DNA of 64,000 bases, taken from Lachnospiraceae bacterium. GTDB taxonomy: Bacteria; Bacillota; Clostridia; Lachnospirales; Lachnospiraceae. A program made the position numbers and the translations under genes. Each line of letters opens with the position of its first letter. Position 1 is the stretch's first letter. The DNA is taken from NCBI GenBank assembly GCA_029054245.1, contig JAIDFQ010000043.1, positions 434,001 through 498,000 of the forward strand. The letters are read 5' to 3'. The notes below the pieces were generated by a model. That model worked only from the letters and a program-made list of their open reading frames with translations, searched no databases and had not been told where the DNA came from. Of this stretch, positions 19,246 through 36,479 are shown in pieces.

Positions 19246-19578
19246 TTATGATTCGTCACATCCGCAGCCTGCGTTCTGATTGAATACAAAAGGTCTCTGC
19301 TCAAAACGGGGTTCTGAACGGAATTCTGTTCTGCATCCGCAGTCATTATCATTCTGGCGTTCACTTCCGCAGCCATCGTTCATGCTGCCACAGCCGCATC
19401 CATCATTCCCTCTGCCACAGCCGCAGCCATCATTCCCTCTGCCACAGCCGCAGCCATCATTTCCTCTGCCGCGCTCTCTGCATTCATTTCTTTCACGACC
19501 ACAGCCGCATCCGCTGTCAAAACAACTTCCGTTATTTCTGCAGCTTAATAGTAATAATACCCAAATCAGACAATTCAT
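19246..19578 (-). CDS. Small cysteine/glycine-repeat protein with hydrophobic N-terminus
   Basis: 110 residues. A short hydrophobic lead (MNCLIWVLLLLSC) is followed by a run rich in Cys, Gly, Asn, Asp and Arg, in which a nine-residue unit close to GNDGCGCGR occurs three times (19391-19471 in DNA). Cysteines come mostly as CGC pairs. The start has GGAGTG about 9 bases upstream. The lead could be an uncleaved anchor or a lipoprotein-like signal, since LLLLSC resembles a weak lipobox. Similar Cys-rich repeat proteins occur in Clostridia, sometimes labelled chorion-like, without known function; metal binding or a spore-surface role are guesses. It sits 67 bases after the DUF5662 gene. Confidence 0.65.
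   Translation of the reverse strand: MNCLIWVLLLLSCRNNGSCFDSGCGCGRERNECRERGRGNDGCGCGRGNDGCGCGRGNDGCGCGSMNDGCGSERQNDNDCGCRTEFRSEPRFEQRPFVFNQNAGCGCDES
19391..19471 (-). repeat. Three 27-bp tandem repeats inside the Cys/Gly-repeat gene
   Basis: Three consecutive 27-base units start at 19391, 19418 and 19445. They differ at only a few bases and encode the nine-residue Gly-Asn-Asp-Gly-Cys-Gly-Cys-Gly unit. The period is a multiple of three, so changes in copy number would keep the reading frame. Confidence 0.85.
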
Positions 19579-19645: not shown

Positions 19646-20182
19646 TTAAGCATTGTGCAGAAGCTTTTTTCTGATATAGGCAAAAGTATAATCTTCTCCC
19701 CTCTCGGAGAGCATGTGCAGAAGCTTTTCTAATAGTTTTTTGGTTTTGGGATGAAGCGGCACTCTTTCCCTTCCCTTTGCATAATACTCCCATGGTGAAG
19801 AATCCGTGTACCGTTCCTTATTGTAAACCTTTGACGCCGCAATTCGATCCATCAACATTTCCACCACATATTTTACAGGCATAGGCGCCGGCGCCATCCC
19901 GCCCGCAATATCTCTGGCGCTGTAATCAATCCAGTATTCATAATGATGCTTATTGCGTCCTTTGTGGTGAAGCCATGCGGAAGAATAACCGATGGCCTCC
20001 CGTTCTGCATTGTTCGGGCTCCTGTTGCCTTGATAATACCTTGCGCCCACCAAAAACTCACTGGGACTGTATTTTGATAAGTCGTGAAGAAGCCCCTGCT
20101 TATAAAGCCCCACTTTAAAGCAGCCCTTCATCACCAGGTATTTATGATAAGTTATGGTCTTAAAATGATTCCATGCTTTCAT
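19646..20182 (-). CDS. DUF5662-family protein
   Basis: 178 residues. The N-terminal region has the pattern TYHKYLVMKGCFKVGLYKQG, then HDLSKYSPSEF, and later WLHHKGRNKHHYEYW. Paired His and His-Asp residues like these are characteristic of DUF5662 and suggest a metal-binding helical fold related to HD-type proteins. No function is established. Its start overlaps the stop of the upstream GH13-like gene by 4 bases, so the two are translationally coupled. Confidence 0.75.
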   Translation of the reverse strand: MKAWNHFKTITYHKYLVMKGCFKVGLYKQGLLHDLSKYSPSEFLVGARYYQGNRSPNNAEREAIGYSSAWLHHKGRNKHHYEYWIDYSARDIAGGMAPAPMPVKYVVEMLMDRIAASKVYNKERYTDSSPWEYYAKGRERVPLHPKTKKLLEKLLHMLSERGEDYTFAYIRKKLLHNA

Positions 20183-22143
20183 GCTTTCGATTGTCTTTCT
20201 TTTCTTTTTTCAGTTACTTTTCTCTTTTTATTTTTGGCGGGTGTAGATGCACATTTTTTAGTCATAAACACGGAAATGCTTCTGCTGCTTACCGTAACAG
20301 AAAAATCTTCAATTTGGGAACTGCTCTGGTCCATTGAGACTTCAGTTGAAAGGGAAGTATCCGACAGCTTCATCCATTTTTCTCCGTTAGACAGCGTTGG
20401 CAGCGCCAGTTTGTGGGGCTCCCAATGCATATTATAGGCAATATAAAAGGATGCATCCTCTTTTCCAGGTGCATATTGTCCGTTAAGAACAATACCAATC
20501 ATCCTGCCGATATAGCTTAAATCCGGCCGCCACGCCTCCGCTCCGTGATAAGAAACATCCGGATAGCCAAGCCCCTTATAATCCATCACCCTCATTTCTT
20601 CCTTCATATGGAGGATAGCATGTGATTTGCGAAGCTTGATTAAAAATCTGGTATACGCCAGTACTTCTCTCGAAAAAAGAGTGTTTTTCCAATTGACCCA
20701 TCCAGTCTCATTATCCTGACAATAACAATTGTTGTTGCCTCCACGAGAAGATGCAAATTCATCACCGCCAAAAAGAAATGGAATTCCCTGAGACAGGAAA
20801 ATAAACGACAATGCATTTTTCATCTGTTTAAGACGAAGATCCAGCACTGATTTCCTGCGGGTATCGCCCTCAATGCCGCAGTTCCAAGTTAAATTCACAT
20901 CGATTCCATCACGGTTATTTTCTCCGTTTTCTTCATTATGCTTTCTTTCATAGGAAACACAGTCGTACAGCGAAAAACCATCATAGTCTGCCAGATAATT
21001 GACAACACTGTACTCTGGCGGATTGCGGCGCTGATAATAAATCGCCTGGTTCAGCAGCCCTTCATCCCCCTTTAAAAAACGCCTAATATCATATCTGAAA
21101 TTATTATTGTCGGAAATGAAATTTTTAAAGACCGGATTGGCGATTACCGAAATATCTTCTTCCGGGAGATAACTACACCAGATTTTCGTGTTTTTTAAAA
21201 TAGGTTCTTCCGCAAGAAGTCTGAACGGAATATGAAATCCGCTGATCCTCGCCCCATCAATATGGTATTCCATGACCCAATATTTTATTACATCCAACAT
21301 GTAAAGCTGTCTTATTTCAGGCGGAAAATAAAAATGCATCATGACTTCAATTCCGTTTTTGTGGAATTCACGCACAAGCTCTTTAAATGAAACGGAAGGT
21401 GACTTGGCAGCGCTATATGCAGCTTTCGGAGCAAAATAAAATCCATTCTGGAACCCCCAACAGTTTAAGCGTACCATATCCGTCTCTAAGCCAGAATTCA
21501 GAACCATTCCCCCTGCCGCCAAAGCAGCCGCAGGCGGTTGTACCTCCTTCTCAAATGGCTTATAGCAATGATCTTCCTGCAAAATACACTCATCATACTC
21601 ATAGCAGGGCATCAGCTCCACTGCCGTAATTCCAAGTTCTTTCAAATAAGGAATTTTCTCAACAACCCCTTCAAAAGTCCCTCTGTTTTTGACGCCAGAA
21701 CTTTTGTGCATGGTAAAAGCACGAACATTGATCCCATATATAATACTGTCTTCTGGTGGTATCATAAGGGGCATGTCCCCCTGCCAGTCAAATGGCTGAA
21801 GTGACAGCGTTCCATACGTCATTCGCTTTTTTGTTTTACCAGCTCCCCATTTTTCCAGCCCGCGCACTTCCTGCGCATAGGGATCCGTTATGATCTTCTC
21901 ATCTATGTAATAATTATATGTATAAGACCCTAGATCCTCTCCATCTATCTGAAGTCCATAAAGGGTCCCTCGCTTTCCCTCATCCTTAAACGGAATATGC
22001 CGTGCAGAACCTCGTTTATCATATAAAACGACCCCACACTCTTTATTTGTGAGTAAATACGCCGCAAATTTCACGCTGTTTTCTGCGAGAAATACACCCT
22101 GTCTATCCGGTTTAAAATATGTTATGTTCAAATCTGATTTCAT
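20179..22143 (-). CDS. Isoamylase/GlgX-like GH13-family protein lacking the catalytic residues
   Basis: 654 residues with the architecture of a glycogen debranching enzyme or isoamylase: an N-terminal CBM48-like beta domain (about 10-110), a GH13 barrel (about 130-560) and a C-terminal beta domain. Family landmarks remain, such as LKELGITAVELMPCYEYDE, NGENNRDG and FRYDIRRFLKGDEG. However, all four catalytic regions are altered. Region I (normally DVVYNH) reads HFYFPP from His270; the nucleophile Asp of region II is Ser301; the acid/base Glu of region III is Ser324; in region IV His is Tyr387, though Asp388 remains. It is therefore probably not a hydrolase and may bind alpha-glucan or act as a regulatory partner. 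The start has GGAGGGC upstream. The reading frame is intact over its full length. Confidence 0.8.
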   Translation of the reverse strand: MKSDLNITYFKPDRQGVFLAENSVKFAAYLLTNKECGVVLYDKRGSARHIPFKDEGKRGTLYGLQIDGEDLGSYTYNYYIDEKIITDPYAQEVRGLEKWGAGKTKKRMTYGTLSLQPFDWQGDMPLMIPPEDSIIYGINVRAFTMHKSSGVKNRGTFEGVVEKIPYLKELGITAVELMPCYEYDECILQEDHCYKPFEKEVQPPAAALAAGGMVLNSGLETDMVRLNCWGFQNGFYFAPKAAYSAAKSPSVSFKELVREFHKNGIEVMMHFYFPPEIRQLYMLDVIKYWVMEYHIDGARISGFHIPFRLLAEEPILKNTKIWCSYLPEEDISVIANPVFKNFISDNNNFRYDIRRFLKGDEGLLNQAIYYQRRNPPEYSVVNYLADYDGFSLYDCVSYERKHNEENGENNRDGIDVNLTWNCGIEGDTRRKSVLDLRLKQMKNALSFIFLSQGIPFLFGGDEFASSRGGNNNCYCQDNETGWVNWKNTLFSREVLAYTRFLIKLRKSHAILHMKEEMRVMDYKGLGYPDVSYHGAEAWRPDLSYIGRMIGIVLNGQYAPGKEDASFYIAYNMHWEPHKLALPTLSNGEKWMKLSDTSLSTEVSMDQSSSQIEDFSVTVSSRSISVFMTKKCASTPAKNKKRKVTEKRKERQSKA

Positions 22144-22310: not shown

Positions 22311-22670
22311 ATGAATAGCAATCAGAAAGAAGACAATTTGAGCAATTCCGAGCAGGACCAGATGATAGATGCAGGCGAAGAGATGACCGTAACCTTAGAC
22401 CTTACGGACGGAACCTCCGTCACCTGCGCTATCGTTACCATCCTCGCAGTAAAAGAACAGGATTACATTGTTCTGCTCCCCCTTGACGAAAACGGAAGAA
22501 ATGACGACGGTGAAGTGTGGTTTTACCGCTACCGCGAAAATGAGGCGGATCCGAACGAGGAACCCGAACTGGAATACATTGACGATGATGAGGAATACGA
22601 AATCGTAGCAGATGCTTTCGATGAATACCTTGACAGCGTAGAATTTGACGAGGTCATGGGGGAGGAATGA
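22311..22670 (+). CDS. DUF1292-family acidic protein (YrzB-like)
   Basis: 119 residues, strongly acidic, with the DUF1292 core (EEMTVTLDLTDGTSVTCAIV, then YIVLLPLD and EVWFYRY, then a run of acidic residues ending in the FDEYLD motif). The family is widespread in Firmicutes and its function is unknown. The ribosome binding site AAAGGAG lies 6 bases upstream. It is a lone plus-strand gene; its 3' end overlaps the convergent helicase gene by 17 bases, with no terminator between them. Confidence 0.88.
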   Translation: MNSNQKEDNLSNSEQDQMIDAGEEMTVTLDLTDGTSVTCAIVTILAVKEQDYIVLLPLDENGRNDDGEVWFYRYRENEADPNEEPELEYIDDDEEYEIVADAFDEYLDSVEFDEVMGEE

Positions 22671-34212: not shown

Positions 34213-34818
34213 ATGTGGAGTTATGAGAAAAGATTACAGTTTCCGGTTAATATCAAGGAGCCCAATGCCAAGATTGCCCAAGTAATCATGTCGCAGTATG
34301 GCGGTCCTGACGGGGAGTTAGGAGCCTCCATGCGGTACATTTCACAGCGATATTCTATGCCGTATAATGAGGTGGCTGCTATATTGACAGATATTGGAAC
34401 GGAGGAATTAGCACACCTTGAAATGGTATCTACCATTGTCCATCAGCTTACAAAAAATTTATCCATGGAAGAAATTGAAGAATCTGGTTTTGCCAACTAC
34501 TACGTTGACCATACTGTTGGTATCTGGCCTATGGCGGCAGGAGGAATTCCTTTTAACAGCTGCGAATTCCAGTCGAAGGGGGATGCGATTACAGATTTGT
34601 TTGAGGATATGGCAGCAGAACAAAAAGCTCGCACTACTTATGACAATATCTTACGCTTGGTGCATGACAGTGATGTCTGCGAACCTATCCGTTTCCTGCG
34701 CGCCCGTGAAATCGTTCACTTCCAAAGGTTCGGTGAAGCATTGCGCATTGTTCAGGATAAACTTGATTCCAAGAACTTTTATGCATTTAACCCTGAATTT
34801 GATAGGTGTAAGTCATAA
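34213..34818 (+). CDS. cotJC: CotJC, manganese catalase-like spore coat protein
   Basis: 201 residues, the standard size. The fold is a ferritin-like four-helix bundle with metal ligands in the expected segments (QYGGPDGELGASMRYISQRY, DIGTEELAHLEMV, FEDMAAEQKARTTYDNIL, RAREIVHFQRFGEAL). Mn-catalases disproportionate hydrogen peroxide; CotJC is a coat protein deposited with CotJA and CotJB. GGAGG lies upstream within the cotJB end. A terminator follows at 34841-34876. Confidence 0.94.
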   Translation: MWSYEKRLQFPVNIKEPNAKIAQVIMSQYGGPDGELGASMRYISQRYSMPYNEVAAILTDIGTEELAHLEMVSTIVHQLTKNLSMEEIEESGFANYYVDHTVGIWPMAAGGIPFNSCEFQSKGDAITDLFEDMAAEQKARTTYDNILRLVHDSDVCEPIRFLRAREIVHFQRFGEALRIVQDKLDSKNFYAFNPEFDRCKS

Positions 34819-34840
34819 TCATCTATTTTCATTATTATTT

Positions 34841-34876
34841 AAAAGAGCGAAAGTATCAACATGCTTTCGCTCTTTT
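34841..34876 (+). terminator. Rho-independent terminator of cotJABC
   Basis: A 13-bp stem (AAAAGAGCGAAAG at 34841-34853 and its complement at 34864-34876) with a 10-base loop lies 22 bases past the cotJC stop. The right arm itself ends in CTCTTTT, giving the U-tract. Confidence 0.85.
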
Positions 34877-34992
34877 AAACGTAACCTGGGTTTGTAATAA
34901 ACGGAATTTATTCCTATCATCCTATAAAAACATAAAAAATAGCAACATTATTTGTAAAATATTTGAAAAATTAAAAATGTATCTTAAAATGG

Positions 34993-35021
34993 TTGCAAAT
35001 ATGTCTATTTTTTTTTATTAT
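34993..35021 (+). promoter_or_regulatory. Probable vegetative promoter of the CZB chemoreceptor gene
   Basis: TTGCAA (34993-34998) and TATTAT (35016-35021) are separated by exactly 17 bases in a very AT-rich 293-base gap. The transcript would begin near 35028, giving an untranslated leader of about 84 bases before the ATG at 35112. No sigma-D (flagellar) type promoter was evident. Confidence 0.5.
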
Positions 35022-35111
35022 AATCTTATATAAATGGTCATTTTAACATGACATAAAATATATGTTCTAAAGTATTATAAAATATATACATATCTAAGGA
35101 AGAGGTGCTAA

Positions 35112-36479
35112 ATGGCAGGAAATAAGAAATCAACAGTGCTTATGAAAGCAGTTTCTCAGTTGAAAGCTGAGGATTATTCCCGGGAGCCCGAACTAAATAA
35201 CATTTATCAGCGGCTATTCCGTGCAAGAAAACAGTTTGCAGAGATCTTTGAAATGAACCTCAAAGCAGTTATGCAGATTAGTTCCCTTGATCTCACAATG
35301 CAGTATGAAACACAGAAAATCGTTGATATATCCCATAATGTCGCAAAAGCTGCAGAAACCATCTTTGGATCTTCATCTGAAAATTCATACATGACAGGAA
35401 ATGCAGATAACCAGCATGAGGAACTTACCAACACGATTGTCAAAGTTGCCTCTGAAGCCGAGGAAGTTTACAACAAGATCGATACATGTCAGAACGAACT
35501 TACCTCCATTAAGAATCTCTCCTCCCAGACCATCGACAGCTCCCATCAGCTGCAGAGAGATATGGATAACCTGCTTGAAGTGATTAACTCCATGAATGAA
35601 GTTATCTCCGGCATCGATACAATATCAATGCAGACCAATCTTCTGGCATTAAATGCTTCCATCGAAGCATCCCGGGCCGGCGAGGCAGGACGCGGTTTTG
35701 CCGTAGTAGCAGCAGAAATCAGAAAATTGGCAGAAGAAACACAGAAACTGACCGGTAACATGAGCGAGTTTGTAGAGGAAATAAAAATGGCATCCAAACA
35801 AAGTGTTGAAAGTGCTGCCGGAACCATAAATGCTCTTGGATCCATGACCGAAAAGATTGGAAATGTCTGGAAATTGAACAGCGAAAATCAGGCGCACGTT
35901 TCCATGGTAAGTGAATCCATCAGTTCTATTGCAGCTGTCAGCGAGGAACTTAGCAGTTCCATGAACGAAATGGAAAATCAGCTAAGAGACAGCACAGAAT
36001 TCATGATGAATGTCAGCCAAGAACTCAAAAAAGCAACGGAACCTGTTGTCGATATCGAAAAGACTCTGGACAATACCGTAAAGCAAATGGGAGCTATGAC
36101 AGAGGATGCATTTTTCCATTTAGAAAATACTGAATTTTCCAAGCAGGTAAGCAACGCAGTTACAGCACACCAATCCTGGCTTAAGAATCTGGAAAAAATG
36201 GTAACTGAACGCAATATCATACCTTTACAGTTAGATTCCTCCAAATGTGGGTTTGGTCATTTTTATTATTCCATGACGCCGCAGATACCTGCTGTCCGTC
36301 CCATATGGGATGCTCTTGGAAGCAAGCACCAGCGATTCCACAAATTTGGCGGAGAAGTAATTTCTGCATTAAGGGAAGGAAATTACACAAAGGCGGAACA
36401 AATTTATTACAGTGCAGAGGTATTTTCCAGAGAACTGATTGCAGATCTGGAAAAGATTCTGCAATTTTCTACAAATTAG
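35112..36479 (+). CDS. Soluble methyl-accepting chemotaxis protein with C-terminal CZB zinc-binding domain
   Basis: 455 residues with no membrane segment. A long coiled-coil signalling region (about 60-330) contains the hairpin tip [42 protein letters not shown], given here in parts: [16 protein letters not shown] and [15 protein letters not shown]. The last 100 residues form a CZB domain with His in TAHQSW, Cys in KCGFGHFYY and the HxxxH pair in KHQRFH. CZB domains bind zinc and can sense hypochlorous acid or zinc. It is transcribed away from cotJ by its own promoter and ends at a terminator (36496-36524). Confidence 0.9.

Follow-up and report, generated by a model that had tools for sequence, protein, structure and literature searches.

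What does a bacterium keep when it keeps the frame and the fold of a glycogen debranching enzyme without the residues that cut? The question is raised by a minus-strand gene at 20179..22143 of a 64,000-nucleotide stretch, here called the window, of a Lachnospiraceae bacterium genome (assembly GCA_029054245.1, contig JAIDFQ010000043.1, positions 434,001 to 498,000). Its 654-residue product, P0001, belongs to the GH13_11 (isoamylase/GlgX) fold family, as similarity of sequence and fold across the barrel and the C-terminal domain attests. The nucleophile, the acid/base, region I and the associated loops are lost; the β7–β8 lobe and the C-terminal domain are kept; and the proteins that share this condition form one clade under purifying selection. 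The favoured reading, given a probability of roughly 0.55, is that they are non-catalytic accessory proteins, a bacterial counterpart of plant ISA2, with binding of α-glucan predicted from sequence comparison.

20179..22143, minus strand: pseudo-isoamylase gene, GH13_11 fold, catalytically dead, 654 residues, recognized by open reading frame, profile, structure-search and alignment evidence.

The open reading frame starts at 22143, ends at 20179 and has no internal stop, so the intact frame of 654 residues reported in a preliminary description of this DNA stands. Against the NCBIfam GlgX profile TIGR02100 the protein scores 285.8 bits, below the equivalog cut-off of 640.9, with the best stretch at profile positions 316-686. 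In a Pfam scan PF00128 is found over residues 149-183 only (40 bits), and the isoamylase C-terminal domains are under their cut-offs. Among solved proteins ISA1 of plants and algae is closest in sequence, followed by Streptomyces venezuelae GlgX and TreX, with ISA2 also matched. An AlphaFold2 model built on a 42-row alignment, A1, that contains P0001 twice has a mean predicted local distance difference test score (pLDDT) of 81.8 and a predicted template modeling score of 0.84. The structural overlay proposed earlier was run at the level of fold: the top Foldseek match in the PDB is rice ISA1 (E 1e-48, TM 0.77 by query length), and GlgX, TreX and ISA2 come lower.

The four catalytic regions are placed as follows.

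21319..21336, minus strand: region I remnant, residues 270-275, HFYFPP for DVVFNH, with about 44 residues of the following GlgX loop deleted.
21241..21258, minus strand: region II, residues 296-301, nucleophile replaced by Ser301 and Arg299 kept, with about 14 loop residues after the region deleted.
21172..21186, minus strand: region III, residues 320-324, acid/base Glu replaced by Ser324 in the alignment with GlgX.
20974..20994, minus strand: region IV, residues 384-390, His replaced by Tyr387 and Asp388 kept in the alignment with GlgX.

The reference for these columns is the set of the 30 best-scoring Lachnospiraceae GlgX proteins, all of which have the Asp, Asn and His of region I, the Arg and Asp of region II, the Glu of region III and the His and Asp of region IV. 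At the same columns P0001 has H270, P274, P275, R299, S301, S324, Y387 and D388. The preliminary description had all four regions as lost; HFYFPP, Ser301, Ser324 and Tyr387 are as it claimed, but Asp388 and Arg299 remain, and the loss is of two of the three catalytic acids with the stabilizer column still Asp. The region II Arg is itself variable: in the dead family, as P0001 and its relatives are termed here, 24 of 32 representatives have His instead. Regions I and II are changed by loop deletion as well as by substitution: the median region I loop between anchors is 59 residues in GlgX (n=30) versus 15 in the same 32 representatives, and the stretch after region II is 23 residues versus 9. 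A sub-clade of 16 proteins (L205, L207, L209 and L213-L225; frames of 564-614 residues) has lost about 22 residues more, and its region III segment is gone.

Loss of the triad is a trait of the whole family and is not peculiar to this genome. The full set of three acids occurs in none of 102 unique family sequences (the closest relatives, drawn from 109 loci, 29 of one set and the best 80 of another, together with P0001), and two of the three in just 2. At the nucleophile column 14 residue types occur, Asp just once; the acid/base column is Glu in 31 and the third-Asp column Asp in 31. Asp is also absent from the nucleophile column in all 30 more distant members, a reduced or divergent set that includes fragments. 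When the 654 columns are ranked by entropy, those of the nucleophile and the acid/base come 533rd and 565th, toward the variable end, and those of the border lobe 17th to 53rd.

Selection has nevertheless held the protein. The ratio of nonsynonymous to synonymous substitution (dN/dS) in seven pairs of relatives is 0.069, 0.071, 0.076, 0.084, 0.113, 0.120 and 0.163, at synonymous distances of 0.95-2.1, which are near saturation. By segment, in three pairs with P0001, it is 0.03-0.13 over most of the protein, 0.12-0.17 over residues 126-225 and 0.16-0.44 over the last 54 residues; for the β3–β6 face it is 0.03 and 0.04 in the two computable pairs of close relatives. In a quick tree a single long-stemmed branch, with a Shimodaira–Hasegawa-like approximate likelihood ratio support of 100, separates all 49 dead proteins from the other rows, and this branch sits among the GlgX rows under the root used. 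The tree has 70 rows (22 of the 32 representatives, 27 of the 30 reduced or divergent members after 3 below 550 residues were dropped, 15 of the 30 GlgX and 6 from other families), a single-row root and flagged long branches, and what it gives is a single origin of the dead family from within GlgX. Clade-wide catalytic loss under purifying selection is the mark of a non-catalytic isoamylase, and the dead family bears it. That selection, the single clade with free catalytic columns and fixed columns elsewhere, and presence in 195 of 250 genera together give strong support to the view that the gene is maintained as a pseudoenzyme and is not decaying.

Retention is as localized as loss. With a GlgX-conserved column defined as one that is the same in at least 28 of 30 GlgX rows, retention in the dead family is 7 of 88 such columns from the region I loop to β6, 20 of 26 around β1–β2, 36 of 46 in β7–β8, 10 of 11 toward the C terminus and 10 of 34 in the N-terminal domain; the difference between 7/88 and 36/46 has a Fisher p of about 1e-16 with columns treated as independent. 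Two motifs of the retained part, and an arginine, have counterparts in maize ISA1.

20866..20952, minus strand: lobe motif 1, residues 398-426, KHNExNGExNRDG..NxSWNCGxEG; by alignment N403 and W420 correspond to maize ISA1 N561 and W578 (SBS2).
20710..20766, minus strand: lobe motif 2, residues 460-478, GDEF...GNNNxYCQDN; by alignment N470 corresponds to maize ISA1 N628.
21082..21084, minus strand: Arg354, counterpart of maize ISA1 R504 in the border lobe (PMC12510319), kept in 101 of 102 sequences.

According to the available sections of PMC12510319, the maize ISA1 missense alleles at R504, N561, W578 and N628 all fall in the border lobe, W578 touches glucan in the secondary site SBS2, and the border-lobe variants have no detectable catalysis, the N628 variant leaving far more starch than is found in protein-null plants. 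Maize numbering was set via the rice ISA1 stretch, where one of 161 offsets fits all four residues; those sections give N561 in one place (Table 1, section 15) and N562S in another (section 9), and N561 fits the mapping. In the dead family N403, W420 and N470 are kept in all 102 sequences, like Arg354 in all but one. These residues make the earlier suggestion of α-glucan binding or regulation a more plausible one. Other residues are fixed in the dead family and not in GlgX, for example N227, K240, H294, D521, D529 and R547, each in at least 90% of the 32 representatives.

The favoured reading can be put as a sequence of events. A GlgX-type debranching enzyme in Lachnospiraceae ancestry would have given rise once to the dead form, which would have been retained since. 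Its β7–β8 lobe may bind branched α-glucan such as glycogen, as the counterparts of the maize border-lobe and SBS2 contacts described in the available part of the maize study suggest. The protein probably works in a non-cutting mode, because it has lost the cutting machinery and kept the residues that form a glucan-touching surface patch in the plant relative. It might then act on glycogen by occupying branches, by presenting them, or by scaffolding the working enzymes, which in this proposal would be GlgA, GlgB, pullulanase and, where present, GlgX, the last not being obligate.

The dead form is widespread within the family Lachnospiraceae and, in the genomes sampled, was seen nowhere else. 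The 195 genera, each represented by one genome, are the 196 with family-profile matches at E <= 1e-100 minus G243, which has two GlgX-type genes only, and they include contig-edge fragments such as those of G074, G147 and G189. The large genome searches scored 4-6 candidates per genome, and all candidates were scored in 50 genomes, of which 9 belong to the 55 taken here as non-carriers. A class-wide sample of 291 genomes has the dead form in 8 of 10 from this family and in none of 281 from other families of the class; 6 of the 281 match the profile at E <= 1e-40, with frames of 676-752 residues, matches split as in GlgX, and a position among GlgX in the tree. GlgX itself is in 78 of the 250 genera by matches of at least 335 bits, two of them in fragmentary genomes (G042 and G048), and above the curated cut-off in 49. 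From sets compiled by hand out of separate genome surveys, both genes are present in 72 genera, only the dead form in 123, only GlgX in 6 and neither in 49, so that the dead form is in 72 of 78 genomes with GlgX versus 123 of 172 without (odds ratio 4.8, p about 1e-4, uncorrected for kinship). In G126 (locus L254) and G133 (L255), among the part of the genomes for which places are listed, a GlgX-type gene is found at a distance of about 2 kb from the dead isoamylase, and at L254 a gene that looks ABC-F-like by eye stands between the two.

The glycogen gene glgA is in 242 of the 250 genera, 192 of 195 carriers and 50 of 55 non-carriers (p 0.014), so its phylogenetic profile is nearly uninformative and its association with the pseudoenzyme leans on incomplete genomes. 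At 98% completeness, the window's own genome encodes GlgA (566 bits, cut-off 328), the branching enzyme GlgB (NF003811, 923 bits, cut-off 741) and an active-looking type I pullulanase (793 bits, cut-off 504.5) with DVVYNH and GFRFD present. A comparison of the proteins of this genome with P0001 for an active paralogue returned no GlgX and no match above 25 bits, the best, at 24.9, being the type I pullulanase, which most likely supplies debranching in this cell.

Two genes flank the pseudo-isoamylase gene.

19646..20182, minus strand: DUF5662 (PF18907) gene, 178 residues, its start ATG overlapping the pseudo-isoamylase stop (ATGA), a conserved two-gene arrangement.
22311..22670, plus strand: divergent upstream DUF1292 gene, part of the conserved neighborhood, with no evidence of shared function.

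DUF5662 is found at 48 of 80 loci with flanks of up to 6 kb, on the same strand within 400 nucleotides at 47; at 17 of 29 short-flank loci, 14 of them close and on the same strand; and at 20 of 30 loci of the reduced or divergent members, 11 of them close. It is the commonest downstream partner, with 44 adjacent same-strand pairs, 43 having gaps of -50 to +46 nucleotides by first start codon, and the genes upstream of these pairs fall into ten different clusters, two of which share a neighborhood. Near GlgX it is at 0 of 30 loci, with flanks of about 1.5 kb. It is also in 208 of the 250 genera and in 41 of the 55 genomes without the pseudoenzyme, with which its association is only weak (p 0.066), and no GH13-like gene was near it in the 12 regions fetched from those 41. 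The coupling to DUF5662 that had been claimed thus stands as gene order, while the functional link is weak; as proof of a glycogen role DUF5662 is rejected, being common without the pseudoenzyme and, in those 12 of 41 genomes, without a GH13-like neighbor. In 6 of the 12 regions (among L259-L270) a large polymerase-like gene, DnaE by eye, adjoins DUF5662 with a TrmH-like methyltransferase, also named by eye, nearby, and L261 is a seventh region with a large polymerase-like gene, although the frame calling missed DUF5662 there; such a neighbor suggests a role of DUF5662 outside glycogen.

The DUF5662 model is all-helical (pLDDT 82.7), and the invariant residues are H13, H33-D34 and D112. Foldseek gives no significant match (best E 0.27), which falls short of assigning an HD hydrolase; the weak matches include a putative phosphohydrolase, a small alarmone hydrolase and YpgQ, several of which we take to be HD-kind hydrolases, and it is a guess that DUF5662 is an HD-type phosphohydrolase. 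The literature search found no paper on DUF5662. Beyond DUF1292 lie a UvrD-type helicase and then a class I tRNA synthetase of the E/Q kind, both by Pfam. At five loci, including L089, a nucleotidyltransferase-like gene, of the sugar-nucleotide kind by eye, is directly upstream of the dead isoamylase. Downstream of DUF5662 in the window, at 19246-19578 on the minus strand, is a 110-residue Gly/Cys-rich open reading frame with a 27-bp tandem repeat (3.9 copies) and no Pfam match, and at 34213-36479 on the plus strand there is a local reversal of GC skew around a Mn-catalase-like gene and a chemoreceptor-like gene with a zinc-binding CZB domain. Promoter and terminator scans gave no clear excess over shuffles. 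The labels regions I to IV, ABC-F, LuxS, TrmH and DnaE are general background.

Several observations weigh against a glucan-binding accessory role. The border-lobe residues are likewise fixed in active-type GlgX (30 of 30), so their retention may be structural, and 21 of the 30 reduced or divergent members have W420, with the other three residues in 30, 29 and 28. The loops of the border lobe, residues 399-426 and 468-486, have a pLDDT below 50 and are unplaced in the AlphaFold2 model. The N-terminal CBM48 match (PF02922) is at 16.6 bits, under its gathering score of 22.4, and the CBM48 of maize ISA1 is itself argued, in the available sections of PMC12510319, to lack a glucan site. No glycogen gene was recognized beside the pseudo-isoamylase in the window, and neighbors at other loci, mostly named by eye, resemble housekeeping genes. 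GlgX was not found in 123 of the 195 carriers, the window's genome among them. The same absence bears hardest on a heteromer of the ISA1/ISA2 type with the dead protein as regulatory subunit of active GlgX, for which the odds ratio, the two genomes with neighboring genes and the precedent of rice ISA2, which attaches to ISA1 and raises its activity according to the available part of PMC12892837, all speak; an obligate GlgX subunit is therefore excluded as a general role, and the heteromer is very improbable. Decay or an assembly artefact has still less to commend it: catalytic residues are lost and some relatives have in-frame stops inside or ending the matched stretch, but the frame in the window is intact and long open frames occur in many independent genomes, and the dN/dS of 0.07-0.16 over the seven pairs led to its rejection as scarcely credible.

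The most probable of the alternatives, though less so than the favoured reading, is recruitment of the scaffold for a non-glucan task, in which it would regulate through protein-protein contacts or through a small molecule such as a nucleotide, with or beside DUF5662. The pairing with DUF5662 under varied upstream clusters, its absence near GlgX and residues fixed in the dead family alone (such as N227 and K240) favor it, against which DUF5662 persists in most non-carriers, lies elsewhere in the 12 of those genomes that were fetched, and the isoamylase glucan lobe is among the best-kept parts. That the protein is still, or again, an enzyme, with a shifted or new active site drawn from D296, E408, D461, E462, D521 and D529, is unlikely. 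Several acidic residues are indeed invariant across the family, and the remodelled β3–β6 face is strongly selected. D296, D461 and E462, however, are not replacement acids, because GlgX conserves them beside its triad; region I has lost its Asn and His together with the loop that follows; and no sequence has more than two of the three acids. The non-catalytic, glucan-binding accessory protein remains the favoured reading.

The literature search found no bacterial pseudo-isoamylase, and in the available part of a review of prokaryotic α-glucan enzymes the word 'pseudoenzyme' is absent and 'one inactive isoform' stands in the archaea table (PMC11046441). The dead family looks like a second case, this time in bacteria, of a selected non-catalytic isoamylase. 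The available sections of PMC12510319 describe the continued selection of such a protein by plants as not understood. The 123 of 250 genera that have it with no GlgX found make a non-cutting function directly testable. A similarity-based label of glycogen debranching enzyme on a member would also mislead, and would do so in a major lineage of the gut. If the dead family does organize or gate access to glycogen independently of plant ISA2, isoamylases would have a second, non-cutting job that is heritable on its own.

GlgX and TreX (TIGR02100, GH13_11), the parent family in the tree, share with the dead family the domain order, barrel, β7–β8 motifs and C-terminal domain, and differ in that the latter scores 286 bits against the cut-off of 641 and has lost the triad and the region I and II loops. 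Streptomyces venezuelae GlgX (7u3a) is regulated by cyclic di-GMP, by the account in the available part of PMC9530166, so an allosteric site for a ligand can exist on a GlgX scaffold; unlike the dead family, that protein is an active enzyme. The type I pullulanase of the window's genome differs too, looking active and being far from P0001 at 24.9 bits. Plant ISA2 is nearest in kind: it is an ancient, selected, non-catalytic GH13_11 paralogue in which the nucleophile and other catalytic residues are replaced, as the available sections of PMC12510319 describe, and it has the same fold (9j6x_C, Foldseek E 8e-39, TM 0.72 by query length). In contrast to it, the dead family is placed within bacterial GlgX, in a tree whose rows did not include ISA2, and no GlgX was found in 123 of its 195 carrier genomes. 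Those sections also have ISA2 keeping SBS1 without the SBS2 sequence, whereas the dead family keeps border-lobe residues including the SBS2 Trp, and by these sequence features it looks like the reverse of ISA2 in its secondary glucan site. Tentatively, and with the odds a little against it, the dead family may be an independent bacterial non-catalytic isoamylase that organizes or gates access to glycogen, having made the opposite choice of secondary site to plant ISA2, with border lobe and SBS2 kept and the catalytic face dismantled.

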